This document shows, one piece after another, positions 8,901 through 52,196 of a DNA stretch of 64,000 bases. The DNA is from Lepisosteus oculatus (taxonomy: Eukaryota; Chordata; Actinopteri; Semionotiformes; Lepisosteidae). Where the stretch lies: contig NC_090711.1 of assembly GCF_040954835.1 (NCBI RefSeq), forward strand, positions 1,743,501 to 1,807,500, given 5' to 3'. Position 1 is the first letter of the stretch. Every line of letters starts with the position of its first letter. The notes under the pieces were generated by a model. It was not told the origin of the DNA. It ran no database searches and saw only the letters and a program-made list of their open reading frames with translations. The translations under genes were made by a program, and so were the position numbers.

Positions 8901-11900
8901 GCTGAGACTGGGGTCTCTCTGCATCTCCTCCATGGTCTCTATCAGCTGCGGCGCCCTCTCCTGGCAGAGAGAGGAGAGACAGAACAGAGCCTCAGGACGG
9001 AGAAGACACTGCTCTGAGCTACCCCAGCGGAGTGGGGCGGGCCGTTACAGAGCTGAAATCCACACTCGGATGGAAAATGTGTTTTTTCCTTTGATTGAAT
9101 ACTAAATTATTATTAAATATTAAAATACTACAGCTGAATTGTTTCGTTCTTTTTGGTACAACTATCTTTGGCTCACCCGTGTAACAGGACGTACTTGTTT
9201 CAGGCAAACCGGTGAATGACTGGTTATCTGCTATGAAAAAAGCACCTGTCTAGAAATGGATACATGTTGCAGGACGGCCTAACTCTGCTGCATCTTCCTT
9301 CTAGAACACAAGGGTCATGTCAATGAACACAAAACACGGCTCTGCGGCTCTGCAGAGTGAGCTCACCGTGTCACCACAGCTGACCGGGGAGGCCTGTGGG
9401 CTCGGGGCAGGTTCGATCTGGCTCTGAGCGGGGCTGTGGGCCGGTGCTGGGGCTGGGGCTGGGGCTGGGGCCGGTGCTGGGGCCAGTGCTGGGGCCGGGT
9501 CCGGGTCGATGGCAGGGGCAGCTGGGGGTGGCGACGGGTCAGGTGCTGGCTGCGCGCCCCCTTTGCTGGAGTCCTGACCAGCCTGACCGCCCTCCGCTGC
9601 CTCCTCCTCTGACTGACTCTCCAGCTGGGCTGCCTTCAGGGCGGCCGACAGCACCTCCACCTGGGCTAAAGTGGAGAGGTGAGCACAGGTGAGGAGGGTG
9701 GCTCAAGGCAGCCCTGTGCACAGACACTCATGCACAGACCCTCAGGCACACTCGTGCACAGGCACTTGTGCACAGACCCTCGAGCACACTCGTGCACAGG
9801 CACACGCATGCAGCTGAACATAGCACAAACTTCTACCACTCTTCCTGTCCGCTGCCTGTCTCCCCTCACCTTGCACGTTGGGGTCGTCCAGGTGTGGCTG
9901 CAGGCTGTCCAGCACCTTCTGGATCTGGGTGCTGGTGGCGTGCCCCTGGGGTCCCCAACCAACACCCCCCTGGGGTGTCCCCTCAGTCTGCAGCAGCTCC
10001 AGGTCCTGGCTGATGTCTGGGAGGGGTGGCCTCCAGTAGTTAAAGGAATTAAACGTGTCCTCAAACTCCCCATCTGGCCCCAGAGCAGCGGGGCAGTTGT
10101 GTGGTGAGCTGTTGCACTGGGCCACTGCAGAGGTGGCAGAAGCGGCCGGCGTGTCTGTGCTGCCTGCAGGGGGCAGCGCTGGAGCTGGGGTGGAGGCCGA
10201 GTCCCCAGCTGCCCGGCAGCCTCCTGCCTCACAGCAGCTCCTGTTTCCGTCTTTGCCAACTGTACCCTCCAGGGGGCGCTCACACCTGATGACACAGGAG
10301 GTACTGTAACTGAGCAATCCCGAGAGGACACTGTTAAGCTAAGCGGCTATGTGTCATAACAACAGAGTGGCCAGTAGAGGGTGTTACTGTTAACTATTTT
10401 TGGGACTTTTTTAATGTCCCAGGTGCAGGTTAATCATTTCTGTATTTAACTAGAGCCTGAAAAGAGCTGGGATTTTTGCTCCAGCTCTTTATATCCACCG
10501 GCCTCTGTACCTGTGGACAGGTGTGCCACCAGGGGGCGTGGCAGGTGGGGGGCACCTGGCGACGCCCTGCGGCAATCCGTGCTGGCGGAGCTCCAGCCCC
10601 CCACCGGACAGGCTGGCGAAGGTGGAGATGAAGCGGCCGAGAGACTGGAACGCCGCCTGTCGCACCTGCGGGAGAGAGGAGGGAGACAGCAGTGTGACAG
10701 GCAGCTCCTCCTGAAAGATGGCCTCAGTTACGCCAGCACTGCTCAGCTCCCATCACAATACAGTGTGTGAGCACACAGCGCAGCGCTCCCATCACAACAG
10801 TGTGTGAGCACACAGCGCAGCGCTCCCATCACAACAGTGTGTGAGCACACAGCGCAGCGCTCCCATCACAACAGTGTGTGAGCACACAGCGCAGCGCTCC
10901 CATCACAACAGTGTGTGAGCACACAGCACAGCGCTCCCATCACAACAGTGTGAGAGCACACAGAAACACCGCTCCCATCACAACAGTGTGAGAGCACACA
11001 GAAACACCGCTCCCATCACAACAGTGTGAGAGCACACAGCGCAGCGCTCCCATCACAATACAGTGTGTGGGCACACAGCCACACAGCACAGCGCTCCCAT
11101 CACAACAGTGTGTGAGCACACAGCACAGCGCTCCCATCACAACAGTGTGAGAGCACACAGCACAGCGCTCCCATCACAACAGTGTGAGAGCACACAGCAC
11201 AGCGCTCCCATCACAACAGTGTGAGAGCACACAGCACAGCGCTCCCATCACAACAGTGTGAGAGCACACAGCACAGCGCTCCCATCACAACAGTGTGAGA
11301 GCACACAGCACAGCGCTCCCATCACAACAGTGTGAGAGCACACAGCACAGCGCTCCCATCACAACAGTGTGAGAGCACACAGCACAGCGCTCCCATCACA
11401 ACAGTGTGAGAGCACACAGCACAGCGCTCCCGTCAAGACGCGGCCCATCATGCAGAGTGCTGCACCCCCCCACCCCCCGCTGCTCTCGGCGTCTCACCCA
11501 GCGGGACTGGTCGCTGATGAGGCTGATGAAGAGCGGGGACAGCTGTGTCCGCCGCACCTCGGGCGACGTGGAGCTGGACACCGCCATGAAGCACTCGGCG
11601 CAGGCCTTGCGGATCCCCCACAGGCTGTCCGAGCACAGGTCGAAGAACCGCGGCATCTGGAAACACGCCAGCCACGCACATGAGCGCCTGCACACACAGA
11701 GGCCGTCGCCCCATACCCACACTTGCGCTGCAATATCCACACAGAATATTTAATAACACAAAGCTCTGAGGTATCACCAAGTTTACCTTATTGAGGTTAC
11801 ACCGAATGAACATGAATGAACACGTCATGTTCCTTGTAGTGTCATTTTTGTACTGAGACAGATGATGTGAAATGTATTTAGTAGTACAAAGCTTTGAATG

Positions 11901-14900: not shown

Positions 14901-17900
14901 GTTGCACACCACTGAACAGCTGTAGCTCTGTGGCAGTACAGAGCAGCTGGATAAATAGCAGTGTGTTTTTCCTTAGTAAAATCTGAGACCACATGCCCCC
15001 TGTAAAGGGTTCTGACTGAGATCATGGCAAATGGAAATGCACCCAGGGACAGACCCGTCCTCCCTCCTCACCTGTTGAAGACGTTCTCGCTGAAGGCGTA
15101 CTTCTCCAGGCGGCCCAGTGGCGTGAGGTTGTCCTGCCCTGCATCCAGGAACGCCGTTATCCGGATCCCGTCGCACTCCGAGCCGTAGTCGTCAAACCCA
15201 ACTGGGAACAACACACACACGGAGCACAGAGCATAAACTCGCTGTCCACCGAGCGGCTCCACCGCACTGGGAGCTGTCCTTGCAGTCCTTGCACTGGCTG
15301 TTTCAGGCAGCTCCGTCACACAGCAATGCCCCGTGGGACTGGGGCGAGAACGTCTTTCACTTCCCCAGGGGGCGCTGTTCAGCTCAGGACCCAGAACCTC
15401 TGAAAGCCTTCATACTGTAAAGCAGAACATCTGCCTGCCTTAGCCATCTCTGGCAGCTGCCAAAGGATGAATGATACCAAAGCTGTCAAAGGACAGACCA
15501 GAGACAGATTTGTTTTCTTGTTACTTCCAGCTTCCTGTGCCACAGCAACAGGACAGAAGTGTGCACAGTGTTCGTTACTGCTGCTTGATTAACACGCATC
15601 AAATACAAGATCCCACACACAGACGCATGGTGGGGAGCACTCACTATACTGCCTTCCAGGGCCCCTTGTCGGAGGGTTTCTGTGTGCTGCAGAGAAAGGA
15701 CTCCTTCTGAGTGCTTACTACACCTGTCCCCCTGCCAGGGGTGACCACCAGGAGGAGGGGCACCCACACTGTGTGTGGAGATTAGCAAGGTGACCAGCCT
15801 GGCTCTTAGGCTGCAGCAGAGGAGTTATTTTTATTTCACTCCTTAGTTTTTAAATTAAATACTGACTATTTTCCATCGTGAAAATGCCCTTTTGCATATT
15901 GCCTTTTTTTAAAATTAGTATAGAACGCGTCTTAAATGTTCTCCTGCTCCATAGTCCTAGAGTGATAGCCACTCATGCCTCCCCTGGCTGATTCACCGGC
16001 CTCATGAAAGTCAGTGCCCGGGCCTGACTGGACTCACACCCAGACTCGGGCTGCGAACAGGGTGCAAAGCGTGCCGCCTGGGTCTAGACGTTCTCTTGTA
16101 ACAAGCTGCTCACTGGGAGCTACAGAAAAACACTGCCCAGCAAGAACCGAGGAGAGAAATGAAACGGCTCCTACAAACCAGCACTCCCCGAAACCCTCAG
16201 ATGAAGCAGGATTATACACTGGCGTTGCTTGGGACTAGTCTGGAGATTCCCCTGGCCTCCTATACATTACCCCATCACCTCTGCCTCGGCTGCCCCAGGG
16301 GGAAAGCACGCACAAGGCTGAAGAAACAGGGCCTCTGAGAGAAAGCCCTTACGTCCAGCAGGTAACAACTCCAGGAGGATCGATGCTTTTCAACACTAAA
16401 ATAAACCCAATTCTACTGCCTCACCAACTGGCCTATCACTAGGACCCTAGCCCTCATCCTCCTCAGTCCCTTCGAGAAAGGTTTTTTTAAAAAACGCACT
16501 AACCCAGGCTGCAGAAAGCACCTGCATGTTGCCTTGTTTTGATATGCAATATTAGCAGAGTGACTACTTCCGTCTGTCTGGAGTTGAAAGACCATTGAAC
16601 AACAGCACAAGACTTCCTGTTTGCTCTGAAACACTGTTCAAACATTGTTCTACAGTAAATTAAGTGCATAATACAAATTCCAAAGGCCTTACTTCTCCTG
16701 GTCTGTTTCTATCACCATTTCACTCTCGGCTCTCATTCACAATCAGCTGCTGTAAGCGCTGGTCTGAACCTGGAACAGTTCCTATTAATCGCCATTAATC
16801 CCACCCTGTGGGTTACACTTTTTTATAGTCATATTTTCTTCTTTCCTGCTAATGTAACTTGACAGAAAAAAGCTTAAAAAGGCTCTGGTTAATTTTCAGT
16901 ATCACTAAATTGATTAAGCAAAGAGTTCCTGGGGGTTAAGCTACTTTAGAAAAAATATTTTTTATGTAGTCTAAAATCTCTCTACATGTTTTTTTACCCC
17001 AAATGTTTACCACTGCACACAATGTCCGCTATAAAAGTCCTGCCAGGAATAAAACCTACTGGAATTCAGTAAATACTTCCTTCCAATTGTGGCTCAGCTG
17101 TTATTGTCCACACAAACATTTATTTGCACTGAAAATCATTGCTTGGTTTGAACAACATTAGAAAGCCTGCAAACCTGTTCCATCAGGCAGGTCATTTTGA
17201 TCAAACTGAACACAGGAGCACTGCAGACAGGAGACAGGGATTTGTTTTAACGCAGTGAAATGGAAATATTCAAGAGTGAATACGAAGAAGTCAAATAGAA
17301 AAACTTACAGTCATCCAAGTCATCGTGACCGTCTTCAAAATATAAAGACAGACCTAAAAAACAGCAAACAAACACATCGGTGATGGCAGAACAGTGCACA
17401 TATTGCAGAGGGCAGCTGCGTCAGCGTGAGCAGCCTACAAAAGAACAGGTAAGGGTTGGATTAGTGTGTCGTCTGAAGAAGGCTCCACAGCCGAAACGTG
17501 GCGTTTTTTTTTCTTTACCTTTCAGCACGGAATTAACCGTGACCTGTTCTGGTCTATCTCTGGCTGTCCTGACCACATTTTGCAGGTGCGTTATTGAGAG
17601 TGTGCTGACATGTGGAATTACAGTGCAGTGGCAGTGCTCGCTGTCTGACAGGAAGGCGTTACAGGAGGTGGTCAGGTCAGCCCAGTCCATCACTGCAGTA
17701 CAGCTCCCCTCTCTTGTGGACATTTTTACAACTCCCTGTCTCGGGAAGGCTGGAAGTATCACTAAGGACACCAGTCATCCTGGTTCCTCACTTTTCTCCC
17801 TGGTAAGAGTTATAGGAGCATAAAGGCACAAACTTCCACGTTCAGAGACAGTTTCTTCCCACAAGCTGTCAGATGACTGAACTCTACCCCACCACTGGCT

Positions 17901-19632: not shown

Positions 19633-22600
19633 ATGGCGCTGAGAGAGTTGAAAGTTTGCCTTCTTGGGGTAAGCAATGGATTTTCGGCATCTATTTGTAC
19701 ATCCGTTTGTTTATATGTAATTGACGGGGGAATCTGACACTTACCCTGCATTACCTATGTAGCCGATAACTATCGATACCCTGAACAGACGAGTGTGCCG
19801 TTCTGGCCATCAGATTTGATGTTATCTGAAATCCGGCTATTAACCGTCTATGATCTGAAAGCTGATAAACATGTTAAGGACTGTTAAGGGAGCGCTGATA
19901 AACATTCCGGTTTGCTAGCTTTCGTGGGCATCAAATTAGGTGGTATCCGCAGCTTTTCCACAGTCCATGAGAAACAACGTCTTGATATATTGACACACCT
20001 AAAGAAGGCTCCACAGCCGAAACGTTGTGTCGCTTTTCTTTTCCTTCCAGCTGGGAATAAACCTTTATCTGTATCTCTGCAGCCTGCGCACACTGACGCA
20101 GCTCCCTACCTGGACGTCTTGAAATGTTTACGTTCACAACTAGTTCACAACTCGTTTTTCAGTTTTTAAAGCACGGCGTTGTCATGGGGGCAGGATTCTG
20201 GCTGCTTTACATGGTCAGAGTTCATTATTTCAGTCTGGAGCACTATGGGGGTGAAGGCAATTTCTGGGTCGAGGGCTGGAAGCTCAACTGATTCATTCCA
20301 TTCAGTGGTGTAAGTCTAAACACTGGGGCAAAATGGCACAGACATGATTGTCATACAGTTGTACTTCAACATCTGTGTGTCATTTTGTAGTTGCCATTAG
20401 AGTTACGTGTGAGGCTGTATTGTCTCTATTTTTAACTGGACCTTCCAAAGTGTCAGCATTCGTGTGCAAAAATAATTCTAGGGATGCCAGTCAGTAATTA
20501 GCTGGTGTGCTGTGGAATGCTGAATTTTCCTTTCTTGTTCTCAAGTGTTTTGGCATTTTTAACTTTGCAGTTTTGACTTTGGAGCTGTGAATGTTTGTGA
20601 AGGGTTTCAGAAGCAGTAGGGGATGAAAGGTTATATTTTTCCCTGACTGCTACAGAGTTGCTCGTAGTTTAGCTGCCTCTCTTGGGTGAGTTGTATTTTT
20701 AGCTGGAGCTTCAGGGTGTAGAGAGGAAACTACCCCCCCCCGCCTCTTCTCAGTGCATGTCAGTACAGGAAGTGGTAGAGACGGTGTCTGCTGTCTGGCC
20801 ACCCTCTCAGTGTGGATGGAAAACCTGTAAGACTGTGTTTTTGGACCTCTGCTGAGATATAATTGGTTCAGTTGGAATCCCCCCACACATACACCTCATT
20901 AGGGCTTAATTAGTTGCTAACTGAAGAGCACCAGCAGTACTTGCAGGCACTTCCCTTCCATACAGACCAGGGTTGTCCATTCCTGTTGTAGTGCAGGGCT
21001 GGGGAAAGGAAATCCGTTGTCTCGTTTCTCCTGCCTTCAGCACGAAGTAAACCTTTACCTATTCCTTTGCTGCCTTTCGCAAGCTGATGCAGCTCCCCAC
21101 TCTCATTTCTTCTAACGGCTGATTAATTATTTGATCAAAAACACCTTGCTGTGTCAAAGATCTGCGCTGGACGTCCAGTCTGCATGATGGATGCCCAGCT
21201 TCCGGGGTGGCTCTGTCCCATAATTACTTAATTGAACTAATTGTAGCAAAGGTGGTCCAGTTAGACTGCCCATGAGCTTATTAAGGTTACGATTTCAAGG
21301 AGACTTCAGCCCATCCAGCTTATTTCGTTTTTAATGGCTAATGGATCCTAGGATCTTGCTTGTCAAGCCAGGGTATCATCCTTGACATTCTGCCTCAGCT
21401 CTTTGTGCTGACAAATGAATGGGTTTTAAACACTTCCACTTGCGCCCTCTAGTTCAAGTTGCCCTGTTCGTCCTGGGGAAGTTCACCGGGCTGACTGTGT
21501 CCGTGCCTTCAGGACATCCCCGCATCCCTCCTGGTCCAGGGCAGTGTGGCTGGTGTCCTCGGGTGGAGAACTGCTCTCCTCCCCTCGCGCTGAGTGAGGT
21601 GGGCCGTGGGTGGTGACAGATGGGTGAATCCCCATGTGGTTCCTGCACTGGGGCCTGTGAGTGGGGAGCACACACAGCTTATTTAACACCAGCCTCCTCA
21701 TTTGAGCAGCGCTCTTTGATTTTTGTAGGCGATTAAAAAATCATTCATGCGCGTATTCTTGCGCTCAGACGTTATTTTTCATAACGCTGTACGCGTGCCT
21801 CCCATGTAGACGTTTGAGCAGGGAGCTGCGTCGGCATGCTTTGGCTGTCGGGGAATGTGCGAAGGTAAGTTCCCCGCTGGAGAGTGGACAGAGGAAATGG
21901 CTGTCGGGCGTCTCCAGGTGTGGTCACCCGAAAAGCCAAAACGTTGCGTTTCTTCGTTCTACCTTTCAGCGGGGAATTTACCTTCACCTTTTCCTTTACT
22001 CTGCTGACAGTTTGTTTGTTTCTGTTCCTGCTACAGGACACAGGGGTAGGAAAATCCAGCATTGTTTGGAGGTTTGTGGAGGACAGCTTTGACCCCAACA
22101 TTAACCCGACTATTGGGTAAGTTCTTGACATCTGCTGTGGGACAAATCAACATGGCGCTTTCCAGTTGTTTTTTTTTAAATGCCTTTCTTGTAGTTTAAT
22201 CCCTTGCAATGCTGTTGTGCTGCTTCTTACTTTGAGAAGGTGTCAAAAATGTCCTTGGCATTGCCACTGGAAGCGCAGGAATGCAGCTGTGCCGGCTGAG
22301 CTGCAGGTGTGAGTGGGGAGGGGACGGGCCTGCGGTAAAGGCGCTGTGTGTGCTTTGCAGGGCGTCCTTTATGACGAAGACCGTCCAGTACCAGAACGAG
22401 CTTCACAAATTCCTGATCTGGGACACCGCGGGCCAGGAGAGGGTACGTACTGCATGGGTCCAGGTTTCAGCAGCGCTCCCGGAGCCTGGCTGCAGAGGGC
22501 ACGGTGTTGTGCAACAGCTTTTCATCTTATCTGAGCTCATCTCTGCGCACGCCAGCTTCCTTTCACACTCCGGCTCTCTGTCGGCTGCTAGTCACAGTCT

Positions 22601-25600: not shown

Positions 25601-28600
25601 ATCCTGAGGGGAGACCTGCCTGTTGAGACGGGAGGCCCAGGCAGCAAGTGTCCCTAGCTCCCCTGTGATCTGAGCGCGTGCGCGTTCCCCTAGCGCTGCC
25701 TGTCAGGGTCTGTGGCATAGGGGGCGACAAAACGGAGAGGGTGGCACTGCGCGTGCTTTGTGTACAACTAGGAAGTTCGCATTTGTACGAGCAGTATGTG
25801 CACAGTGAAGGTTATTTTTATCTCTCCGAGCCTTCTTCGCCTCCCCGTGTCAGTTTTCATCTCTGTAACGCGAGAGAGAGAGAGGGAAAGGCCGCCTGCG
25901 GAGCACAGGGCCGGTCCCCCCAGCGTGCGCGAAGGAGGCGAGCTCCCGACGAGCTGCGGCCCGCTGTCGCCCCCCACTCTCCCCGCGTCGGCGGAGGCGT
26001 GGAGCCCGCTCTTCCCCGGGAGCCTCTGCCTGGCCGGCGCAGGGTGTTCCTCCCTGGCACGCCGGGGGGAAACTGACACAGCCTCCGCGAAATCTGCTGT
26101 TTCTGCGGGAAAAATGAATCAAGCTTGATTAACGAGGCAGCCAAAAGCGATGCTAGTGCTGGAAGAATCTGGGCTCAGATTTAAAGAAACCAGTCAGTTC
26201 CTGGTAAGGCTGTCGCTGTGCTTGGCAGTGGCTCTTCATTTCATCACTTCAGAATCACTTTCCATCCTTCTGCCATCTTTCCGCTTTTCTCTCTCTTTTT
26301 TTTTTTTTCCACCCTGCAACCCAGAGGACAGGCCGGCCTCTGTGTGTAGCGCTGATCCCACGGAGCTCGGAGAGAGGAAGCCGGGATGGCCGGTCTGTTC
26401 TGCTGGAGTCTCCCCCGCATGGGTGGGATTAATGGAATTGTGCAAGTGCGTCGCCCACCTTGTCTTGCACGTCCAAGTGCTGAACTGGGAGAGAGTCCCA
26501 GTCCCAGTCCTAGTCCTGTCGAACAGGAGAGGCCTCCTGTCTCCGGCCCCTGCTGCATGGCTTCTCCCGTCTTCATGCACGATGAGTTGACCCAGCTGCA
26601 GCAGCTGGGGGAATGAAGAGATCTTTGCATTTGTATGCTGTTGAGACCTGGTGCCTGTCGTCATCAACAACAACAATAGTTTGAAGTAGGTAGGAGATGC
26701 ACTGTGCTAAAGCAAACAAACCAGCAGGGATGAGATTAAAGCTCTGGAGCAACCAGCCACAACCACCCCCCTCACACACAACAGGGGATGGTGCAGAGGG
26801 GGATAAGGAGAAGGAACATTATCTCCCCCTGCCTTGCGCAGTGCGCTGTGTACCATACCTTACAGCGTGTTGGAAGCCCCAATAGACACTCGCTCCGTTT
26901 TCAGAGAAGAACCAGACTCCCGGTACATTCCTGAAATAACAGAAGGTCTTTCATGAGATGCCAGTCTCGTAATTCCGTAATTCATCTGAGCACGCTTTTG
27001 AAAAGGTTGGAAGGTTTTTCTAGCTCGTCGGGGGCCAGATGGTTGTGGTGCAGCTCGTGGGTGTGCGCGGAGAGCCAGCGGGGTGGCAGCAGGGGGAGTC
27101 TGGGGAGACCACACAGGTCTTGCTGCAATCCCTGCCTGGCTGTGTCCCATTGTTGCAAATTAGAGGCTGTGCTCTCTGCAGCCCTGGTTCCCTGGCAGGT
27201 TCCTCTGATGGCTTCCATGTTTCTGTCAACACTTAATAAGCCCAAAGGTTCCTTAGGGGAGCTCTAGTGTTCCTGAGTTCGGCTGAGAGAATTTTTTTTT
27301 TCTGTTTGGGTTTTGCCAAAAACGGTCTCATCGGATCGTGTTCTCTTCCAGGGTTTCATACAACCACAGTGATTGTCAGTCTGTTAGATTAGAGCTGCAA
27401 AGGAACAAGTAATAGGTTTATTCCATGCTGAAAAAAAGAAGAAAGAGAACACAACGTTTCACCTGAAGAAGGCTCCACGGCCGAAACGTTGTGTTCTCTT
27501 TCTTCTTTTTTTCAGCATGGAATAAACCTATTACTTGTTCCTCTGCAGCCTACGCATGCTGACGCAGCTACCCACCCGTTAGATTAGAGGTCCAGCATCA
27601 CAAATCATTAGAAGGTACATGCTAGCTTTAAAAAGTTTAATACTTTCCATCCTGCATCTCCAAAATGATAGTTTTCAAATCGGAATTAAGTGTGCTTCTT
27701 CCGCAAGGCCGCGGCGAAACACGGAATGTAACTTCCTGTTACCTGCCTGCTCCGCACTGGGAGCATCCTGAGTCACCAGGAGGGTGGAGATCTCATCTGG
27801 TCTTGCTACAGGAAGGGCGCACTCCCTCAGTCCAGCGCCTCTGGGGGGCAGAGATCTTGACACGGGACACTGCTCTCTGAATTGTTTTCCATGCTTAGAA
27901 TCATCGAGGCTCGAGGTGTCGTGGATTCCTCTCATGGGTTTATTTGAGTGGAACTGAGGCTGCCTTGCCCATGCATATTTTCAAGCATTTTCATGCAACT
28001 GAGACTGCCTTGATGGGGACTATTTTTAAGTCTCGCGGAGAGGCAGGCCCTTTTAGAAGCCATCAGTTCAAGTTAGCGTCAGAAAACATGAGGGCTTTGT
28101 CTTTTTATTTCGTAATACAGTTGTGGGGGGTGAAATGCTGCTCTAAAAGTGCACTACATTAATTTTTGAGAATGCAGCACTTAACATGTTCCTCTCCAAG
28201 GGAATCTTGCAAGGTGAAAATGTGCATTTTACAGTCGTATACAGGAAAATCTGGGCTGTCCGGTGGAGGTCCGGGAAACACAAATCGAGAGCCCTGCCCC
28301 ACCTCCACTGTGACCTCTGACCTCAGGCGGGGCAGAACGGCACTGAGAGTGCTGACGCGGGGAAACCTTAACTGCTGAAATTGTTTACTTCGTTATCGAA
28401 AGCAGGGGGAGAAAAAAATCATCTTTGAAATGTGCAATTGATTTAGGAGTCTTAAACCTGGCATTCACTTAATTGCGTTGCTATTTTAAAGCCAGCCCAG
28501 CTGAAAGCTTTGGAAAATATTATAGCGAAAAGAGAAAAAAAATCTTCCAAGAACTGGTGTAATTCGGGGCTGTATTTTTACACTCTGGGCATGGACAATT

Positions 28601-31600
28601 ACACACAGGCTAGTTTTTAGTACCGTCTTTAAAGCGACAGAGCAGAATGCTTTTTCACAAACTTGGATCCGAGCTAAATATCTGTAGTTCCATAAATACT
28701 GCATCTCCAAGCAAGTCTGACACTTTGCGCTCCTCTCTGTCGTAATTGGATCCACATGTGAGGCAGGCTGTACCCCAGGCAGTCCCACACTACTTCCACC
28801 AGAGTGCTTGAAAGGTGAAATTTATTACAGGGAAAGAAACGGTAATTGGCATTCTGACCAGAAACAGTGAGCTCCTTGTGGCTTTTAATAGAATTTCTTT
28901 TTCTTAGCTGTGTCCTGCTGCAGCGTTTTGGTTTCAGTTGTTCCCTAATAAAACATCACACCAATCATCACAGTTGAATGCGGTTTTGTGTATTTATTTA
29001 TTTTGGAAGGGGTAGTCGGAGTTGCTCATCAAAAAAGATTCTCCTTGCTTTAAAAATTACTCTTTTTTTTTTTAGCAGATTTGTTTCTGGGCAATCTTTT
29101 TAACTCTTTTTTAAACTAGAGCAATACTTACGGTTTTTATCTGAAAGCATCTGTAATTTAATAAAATGCCCAGTTCACAGCTATAAGAATTCAAGCTGTC
29201 AATGTTGTAAATCTTCTATTAATCTATTATTTTTTTTTATTGGTGCTTTAGTAATATTCTGTAGCCTAGATTTTTAAGAAGCTGTACATTATAAAGTAGT
29301 TTTAAAATGCTGATTTCTTTAGGCTTTTGTAGTATTCACTTTTAATATCCCTCCTGTGATATTTTATCAGTGCTTAATAATGCATTAACCAAGTATTAAT
29401 TTACAGCTCCTTCACCTGAAGTGCTGCCTGGTCCCCTGGCTTATTTCAGGAGAGCCTTCAAGAGAAATGTTATTGCCTCAACTCTCCTCCTTGTGTATCC
29501 TCTGTCTGCTGCTACCTTCACTTTCGGTGCCGGGACTGAGGCTGCAGGAGTCTTATGCACTCAGGAAGAGGCTCCGTCTGGATTCGTTGCTGAATGCAGC
29601 TCAGATGTGCTGAAGGGGGTTGATGCTCATATGTTGGACAGGCGTCTTATTTTTCTTACTGACGGTTTAACACATCCTCTGTCCTTGGCGTCCGGGAGGT
29701 TGTTTTTGTTGGCCCACCTTGCTCATCTGGTTGTCAGCAGCCTGATGGCTGCAGAGCCCCATTGAGACTGGGCCTCACATGCCCTGCTGTGCCTCCGCAT
29801 CCCCAGCACAACTGGGCCGCTTCAGAAATCCCTGGATGCCCCCATGGTCTTAAGCCTCCTTTGCTGAATCTGAAATAAAGGTCTGGGCTGAGTTTCCGAT
29901 GCCTTTTTAGAATGTTGAAGTTTTCCGCGAGATGCGAGGGGAGCTTCCTTGAGCTGTCCGGCACGTGGCGTGACGTCTGGTGTCCGCACCCCTCTTCCTC
30001 ATGGGCGCCGCCCTCTGGCCGCCTCCCGGCGCCGCGGTGTACCGCGTTGCTAATGTCGGCCCTCTCTCTCTTTGTTCCCCCCAGTTCAGAGCCTTGGCGC
30101 CAATGTACTACCGGGGCTCTGCGGCGGCCATCATCGTCTATGACATCACTAAAGAGGTAACGCTTTCGAAGTTCCCCTCAGTCCCAGGTCTTTTTTTTCC
30201 ACGTGTCACGCGTCATGTCATGCACACCTGCAAGTTTTTTATGGCCTTTTTTTCCCCCATTGCCGTCTCTTCGTTTACCCCTGGCCTACCCACCCACTTC
30301 TTCTGCAGCACTGGGCAGAAGGCAAAACAAGGCTCTTTCTGTGTGATTGTTTTTTCGAACACTGAAGCGTGAGATCCCTTAATGTAGTGAAATTCCGCAC
30401 GACCGTCTTGCGTGACGTGCAGGGCCGAGCTTTGTGCGGGCCCGCGTGCCAGCCGGCTGCAGACCCGGCGCTGGGGCGGTGTCCAGCGTCCCTCCCGTGT
30501 GGTGCGAGCGCGCTCTCCGTGGGCGGGGCCGGGTGACCAGACGGCCTCTTCTGTGCCGCAGGAGTCCTTCCAGACGCTGAAGAACTGGGTGAAGGAGCTC
30601 CGGCAGCACGGCCCCCCGAACATCGTGGTGGCCATCGCGGGGAACAAGTGCGACCTCACCGACGCCAGGTAAGGAACCCCCCTCCGTTTCTCTTTCAGGC
30701 TCTTCCTCTCCGCCCCCGAACCACAGCTCCTGACCCCAGCTGGGTTCAGGCGAATACCAAGCACCTTGGGGTATTTCCGGGTCCACTGCTTACTCATTTG
30801 TCTAAATATACTGCTGTTGTCAGGTGCTCAGAAAGTTATTTAGGGTACTTTCTGGCCTCATCCATAGAATAAGCCACAGCTCCTTAAATGCCCTTAATAA
30901 ATTCTGCTTGCTAGGGGCTTCCTTCTAACAGTGGGCTGCAAGCTGGCATATAGTTATTCTCTGATCCCGCTTGGGTGGGGCTGACCTGCTTGAGCCCCAG
31001 GCTGGGCTCCAGCTGGGTCCCTGGCCAGTCCCTCCTCTTCTGGGGTCTCAGTCTGACCTCCTCGTCCCCGGTGTGCCCTCCCATCTCTTCTACTGTCTCC
31101 GAGCTGTTCCGCAGCATCGGGGGTCTGGAGACCCGTGGGTGCCGCGCCTCACCGTGCGTTACCGGGCGCTCAGGGGAGAATAAAGCACTGGGGCTACACT
31201 GTCCCTTTGTGGGCTCCGGAAACAAAAGTGAGGAGTTTGCCGGTTTGCCTTTTCTGTTTCTGATGCATATATTACGCAGAGGTCAGATAGATCAGTAGTT
31301 AGGCTTTTGCGCAGAGTTATTATTGATGAGGTTTAGAATTTCCTTCCTTTTTTTTTCCCCTTTACACCCGCAGCGTGTTGACTGTCGCCGATCGCCCGCC
31401 GTCTCCCTTTGTTCTGCCCTACTCGCCTGTCAGGGTTGCCTTTCTCACAGGCCTGTTTTGGGGGGGCGGGGGGCACGTGGGGCGTAGCGGCTGCCCCCCT
31501 GGGGCGGGCGGGGTCTGCCGTCCACTTGGCTTCGTCAGGCGCTCCAGCTGGGAGCTCGGAGAGGGCGGGAGCAGGCGGGCCCCGGGTTCCGGACGGGGGC

Positions 31601-39947: not shown

Positions 39948-52196
<12,249 letters not shown>

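Follow-up and report, generated by a model that had tools for sequence, protein, structure and literature searches.

The 183-bp fold-back described here raises two questions: what kind of element it represents, and how an insertion comes to have two nearly complementary arms with a tail on one side only. It lies in a 64,000-nt stretch of the Lepisosteus oculatus genome (NC_090711.1, positions 1,743,501 to 1,807,500, forward strand), which was analysed as a whole and is called the window below. An earlier interpretation made from the letters alone (the sequence-only reading) had taken it for a non-autonomous Penelope-like insertion around a hammerhead-like core.

Anatomy of the insertion in the window

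The insertion of 183 bp is placed between two exact copies of a 12-bp target-site duplication (TSD), GTTAGATTAGAG, which had no other occurrence on the plus strand of the window, the strand searched. The left arm and positions 27483–27548 are reverse-complementary at 65 of 66 positions, the sole mismatch being A/G at 27400, and in a separate repeat search the inverted repeat came out at 67 nt with 99% matching. The arms are separated by a 22-nt spacer, ACCTGAAGAAGGCTCCACGGCC, and the TSD, insert, arms and spacer of the sequence-only reading were thus all confirmed in place. The predicted fold energy of −121.4 kcal/mol compares with a mean of −42.8 for shuffled sequences (n = 200; z = −18.3), none of the 200 being as good. 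The last 29 bp of the insertion, on which the sequence-only reading was silent, have no partner in the left arm; they form a tail on one side, and no other part of the insertion is as informative. Positions in all copies are given on an R scale counted back from 27577 (R 0), on which the tail extends from R −28 to 0, the CTGAAGA box begins at R −114 and the left arm has its outer start near R −29 (Table 1).

Table 1. Features of the fold-back insertion, in window positions
Feature	Position	Strand	Basis
TSD, left copy, 12 bp	27383..27394	.	Repeat search and direct sequence check
Left (inverted) arm: putative cDNA from site 1, tailless, to R −94	27395..27460	-	Arm and end mapping
Right (direct) arm: putative cDNA from site 2 (27577) to about R −116	27461..27577	+	End mapping
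Spacer, 22 nt: part of the right arm unmatched by the left arm	27461..27482	+	Sequence check
One-sided tail, 29 bp, bounded by the two putative start sites of reverse transcription	27549..27577	+	Copy comparison; sequence continues into the stop-free L167 frame
Hammerhead-like boxes CTGAAGA, A, GGC(TCCACG)GCC, GAAACGTT; ribozyme status unsupported	27463..27490	+	Sequence, Rfam, fold, alignment
TSD, right copy, 12 bp	27578..27589	.	Repeat search and direct sequence check

Older fragments of the same pLTR, 81–88% identical, are present in the window at 17410–17538 (in both orientations), 19994–20110, 21821–21847 and 47579–47651. The window also contains a tandem array of 18.3 copies of a 37-bp unit at 10746–11435.

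A coding Penelope-like element as the probable source

Using the right arm with its tail as a query against the 1.2-Gb assembly (813 contigs), 40 places with 96–100% identity were obtained, these being the best 40 of 925 candidates. The 20 loci that were read diverge upstream of the common end, where a longer body, a truncation or an inverted arm with another inner junction was found. One long body (L068) carries a 242-aa frame that terminates just before the pLTR and shows a weak match to PF01541 (GIY-YIG; E 0.0088, 16.8 bits, below the curated cut-off of 22.6). In a search with the L068 protein, the best 150 of 7451 first-look candidates all matched with 96–100% identity; 149 of these 150 EN matches were without a stop codon inside the match, and the open frames around them reach up to 1027 aa. 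Among the same best 150 of 7451, same-strand EN matches of tandem copies were 3036–3038 bp apart at five places.

Analysis of the 2.1 kb read between two tandem copies (L167) revealed that the pLTR and tail continue in frame into a stop-free frame, the 221-aa core of which matched RVT_1 (E 1.2e-5, 25.5 bits, under the curated cut-off of 29.6); the whole 711-aa frame gave no match when searched against Pfam. The motifs FTMDITSLYT, GVAMGTRMGPSYAN and YIDD, at 501, 563 and 601 of this frame, are presumably of the type of Penelope-like elements (PLEs). RT and EN were read in separate copies, L167 stopping where the EN match of a 1027-aa open frame starts. NCBIfam gave only weak RT matches for the L167 core, far below cut-off, and none for the EN part, and searches of PDB returned either no match or three weak unrelated ones. 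At window positions 27498–27515, within the pLTR, CTTTCTTCTTTTTTTCAG looks like a 3′ splice site, and the L167 frame is open through it.

The PLE traits present comprise an RT domain, tandem and partial-tandem pLTR copies, an inverted 5′ pLTR with an optional 30–40-bp tail and a short TSD. Given the RVT_1 and GIY-YIG matches together with this pLTR anatomy, the element is in our judgement an EN-containing PLE, and the insertion in the window represents a short terminal piece (pLTR and 29-bp tail) of this abundant, GIY-YIG-bearing element. Both the element and its anatomy are of an already-known kind. The proposal of a Penelope-like insertion with a TSD was hence borne out, and an RT/EN-encoding relative with identical ends exists in the genome (L068, L167 and the best 150 EN matches). 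The notion of a separate non-autonomous fold-back element was not upheld, a short insertion from the terminus of a coding PLE taking its place: inner junctions vary between copies, which rules out an inherited, fixed fold-back family and indicates that the fold-back was made on insertion.

At L069:6760–8253 (minus strand), an inverted N-terminal part of what appears to be the same PLE frame adjoins a direct pLTR copy, and this inverted part is without a pLTR end of its own in the stretch read.

Hammerhead-like boxes

The CTGAAGA and GAAA boxes are present in most copies. Both caveats attached to the hammerhead proposal proved real: an extra A stands between CTGAAGA and the GGC/GCC stem, where in the hammerhead core stem II follows CUGANGA directly, and stem I of the window copy is limited to CAC/GTG. 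Covariance scanning with Rfam, including matches up to E 10, found no hammerhead model in window positions 26000–29000, in seven direct-copy loci or in a 241-nt stretch, and a further Rfam scan gave nothing at gathering score. Rfam matches to miRNA, snoRNA and sRNA families, most of them on hairpins, fell below gathering scores and were dropped. When stem II was aligned by eye across nine rows, no two-sided compensatory change was seen; G-U and broken pairs occurred, and GAAA was lost in three of the nine. In a 49-nt piece of a direct copy, stems I and II form the minimum-energy fold, yet this fold is no better than that of shuffled sequences (z = +0.53). Together with the lack of ends piled at the predicted cleavage site (see below), these results leave the hammerhead ribozyme unsupported. 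According to PMC11167929, the hammerhead of the PLE of Anolis carolinensis, Poseidon_Ac (PAc), cleaves only when protein is added, so that ribozyme activity may exist here as well, although no hammerhead is recognised in the present element.

Outer ends and target sites of fold-back copies

The outer ends of copies were mapped against a reference built from one genomic pLTR. A total of 125 loci was entered and 124 were classified, L105 being without a seed. After repeats were collapsed, 102 insertions remained, consisting of 72 fold-back rows, 28 single-arm copies, a class into which any fold-back with a second arm of less than 14 nt would also fall, and two odd ones (L058 and L110) whose second arm is an internal piece of 15–17 nt and which belong to neither class. 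As L094 is the same place as L040, the fold-back rows correspond to 71 places.

In each of the 72 fold-back rows, a tailed end at R −2 to +8 (site 2) was paired with a tailless end at R −25 to −46 (site 1). The same mixed type was found in L132, with ends at R 0 and −35, and in L134, with ends at R 0 and −24 as read by the script, the TSD overlapping the latter end. Thus, 73 of 73 independent mapped fold-backs have one site-2 and one site-1 end, the latter at R −24 to −46. A TSD of at least 8 nt was present around 61 of the 72 fold-backs, as against 1 of 72 when flanks were swapped between copies; the TSDs are A/T-rich and mostly 13–14 nt long, overlap into the element included.

All samples consist of best-scoring matches rather than random copies, and two of the locus sets came from queries containing the tail, which could hardly reveal copies tailless at both ends. 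A first tail-blind set was obtained with a query ending before the tail, and its 40 loci gave 35 independent insertions, 21 fold-backs and 14 single-arm copies. All 21 fold-backs were again mixed, four of them (L074, L089, L090 and L125) depending on a second arm of 15–24 nt and two (L125 and L127) having no clear TSD. The single-arm copies started at site 1 in 9 of 14 cases and at site 2 in the other 5. Since independent starts would make at most half of the fold-backs mixed, the chance of 21 out of 21 is, by arithmetic, at most about 5e-7.

For a second tail-blind test, 16 minus-then-plus pairs lying within 4 kb were picked by eye from the 150 EN matches and only their outer ends were read; in one case, at 47.26 Mb on C1, the outer tandem copy supplied the right end. 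Of these long head-to-head pairs, 15 of 16 were mixed, with TSD candidates of 10–15 nt. The exception, L159/L160, has two tail ends and no TSD. Its flanks share a word of only 6 nt and its outward flanks are identical in mirror image, which suggests that one end was duplicated in inverted orientation.

These end combinations suggest that, in every two-armed insertion, copying begins at two fixed points on the element RNA, each used once and each serving one side of the cut. No statement of such a rule was found in the literature searched; it may stand in Cervera and de la Pena 2014, Craig 2021 or Arkhipova 2006.

Inner junctions and relatedness of the arms

Within a copy, the two arms have different inner ends, and many different positions occur among them. 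The query used for the inner ends extends only to R −65 and gave 40 full matches, of which 11 places on C283, C82, C76 and C74 with a like match pattern, one of them read (L134), were counted as a single insertion. Of the resulting 30 insertions 29 were placed, namely 25 already in the set together with L130, L132, L133 and L134, and L131 was left unplaced by the script. Tail-arm inner ends fell at R −106 to −122 in 16 of the 29 and at −89 in one, and none lay at −87/−86, the predicted hammerhead cleavage site, so that cleavage at this position was rejected as the origin of the inner ends. From the pile-up near R −118 we infer the 5′ end of the RNA. ACACC stands at the inner edge of many junctions, and many junctions are near-perfect palindromes.

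In four fold-backs (L074, L089, L090 and L125), the tail arm falls short of site 1, stopping at R −10 to −16; these few cases fit a second cDNA blocked by an earlier site-1 cDNA. Left arms that stop early (L006, L007, L008, L018, L024, L028, L030 and others) show TGT or a longer complement of the putative RNA 5′ end followed by CACCTG, as though the cDNA had skipped a stretch.

At the C/T family variant at R −81, the two arms agree in 56 of 58 rows (9 T/T, 47 C/C and 2 mixed; L040 and L094, one place, count here as two rows), and none of 20000 shuffles reached 9 T/T. Other non-consensus bases common to both arms numbered seven, where 500 shuffles gave 0.65 on average and never more than 4, and 92 arm differences were private to one arm, as expected from later mutation. 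Divergence between the arms within copies (94/4216 sites, 2.2%) is close to that between copies (2.8%), and this measure taken alone is therefore of little help on the origin of the arms. The shared variants at R −81 and the seven other positions disfavour arms from two different RNAs, and a single RNA molecule or a single source locus is the probable origin of both arms. The arms of the window copy differ at R −34, a variable position, which may reflect a later mutation or a second source.

Proposed integration mechanism and alternatives

In the mechanism that we propose, the enzyme of the element would make a staggered cut in the target (12 bp in the window), and the 3′ end of each target strand would prime its own cDNA on the sense RNA of the element. 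One cDNA would start at the internal site 1 (27395), while the other would use site 2 (27577), which lies about 29 nt 3′ of site 1; the two cDNAs would run toward the RNA 5′ end and be joined there, giving a fold-back tailed on one side. The order of these events we infer to be the site-1 cDNA first, which would leave only site 2 free on that RNA. In twin priming of LINE-1, two target-primed cDNAs are likewise joined into an inversion, and the second primer binds the RNA at an upstream position, which keeps the arms from overlapping. Here, by contrast, both arms span one common stretch and begin at two fixed sites close to each other. We consider it very likely that the window carries a short PLE insertion in which both target strands primed and each start site was used once, as in other two-armed insertions.

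Two fixed outer ends, taken together with the two start sites observed in vitro (available sections of PMC11167929), argue that both target strands prime cDNA and against self-priming, in which a target-primed cDNA would fold back at its 3′ end and copy itself into the second arm. The many near-palindromic junctions speak for self-priming, as do the source variants common to both arms; a common source locus would likewise account for the agreement at R −81. A self-copied arm should read back through the tail into the flank, yet the tailless arm stops at site 1, which is where 9 of the 14 tail-blind single-arm copies begin; the TSD around 61 of 72 fold-backs and the many, differing inner ends of the arms within copies are further points against such copying, and we regard it as improbable.

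A non-autonomous hammerhead element multiplying as a 183-bp fold-back unit would account for the CTGAAGA and GAAA boxes in most copies and for the similar length of many fold-backs, but no hammerhead was matched in Rfam, direct and long copies share the same end, and the junctions differing between copies largely refute it, making this origin very improbable. Inverted duplication of an end seems to have occurred at L159/L160; as a general explanation, a chance inverted duplication or DNA-repair product unrelated to retrotransposition has a probability close to nil, being already refuted by TSDs and identical outer ends recurring at many unrelated loci.

In a wider form of the two-strand priming proposed here, PLE integration would be a paired reaction in which both target ends must prime different fixed sites on one RNA, each once and site 1 first; fold-backs would then be the normal two-ended product rather than accidents, and the tail the mark of the second initiation. 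To this form we give an even chance.

Relation to known Penelope-like elements

According to the available sections of PMC11167929, the PAc enzyme cuts and extends both target strands in vitro, and two adjacent internal start sites bound the tail. As in PAc, the present tail is bounded by two internal putative RT start sites in an AC-rich stretch, tandem copies with pLTRs occur and targets are AT-rich; PAc has RT and GIY-YIG in one frame, which were here read in different copies. The PAc frame begins inside the hammerhead, unlike that of L167, whose first ATG lies beyond the tail. No difference in start site between top and bottom strand was seen in vitro, which counts against the one-start-each rule, and the sections available draw no link between the two start sites and the opposite ends of a single insertion.

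Head-to-head inverted pLTRs with a TSD are likewise known from Penelope families in the rotifer Adineta vaga (PMC3846280). The inverted 5′ pLTR of Pen2a is shorter by 37 bp, and a tail of 31 bp is described there as optional for one inverted pLTR. The consulted part of that report explains inverted pLTRs by self-priming on an antisense template and gives no count of end combinations; a curation guide for transposable elements (PMC8969392) describes PLEs, in the part consulted, with neither mechanism nor end pairing.

For the integration of PLEs, whose copies are often inverted with a one-sided tail, self-priming has been proposed in PMC3846280, and PMC11167929 leaves the later steps to be validated, as far as the available sections go. 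With at least 150 near-identical coding copies and many recent fold-backs, the present genome displays in vivo how the ends of a single event are paired, something not given by the in vitro counts in the available part of PMC11167929. The present copies would join the two reports, as seen in those sections, implying that the ends of a single insertion correspond to the two start sites, with each target strand using one of them. Such a one-start-each rule speaks against self-priming, and the published purified PLE system would allow a direct test of it.

Fold-backs in repeated genomic units

One fold-back insertion on C48 and C158 (L084–L088) and another on C76, C82, C74 and C283 recur, many of the places being about 5.9–6.7 kb apart. 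Both seem to travel with repeated genomic units, whose arrays they could date. At L070 (C26:10880000–10889000), the 666-bp fold-back L052 lies within a tandem array that repeats about every 510 bp.
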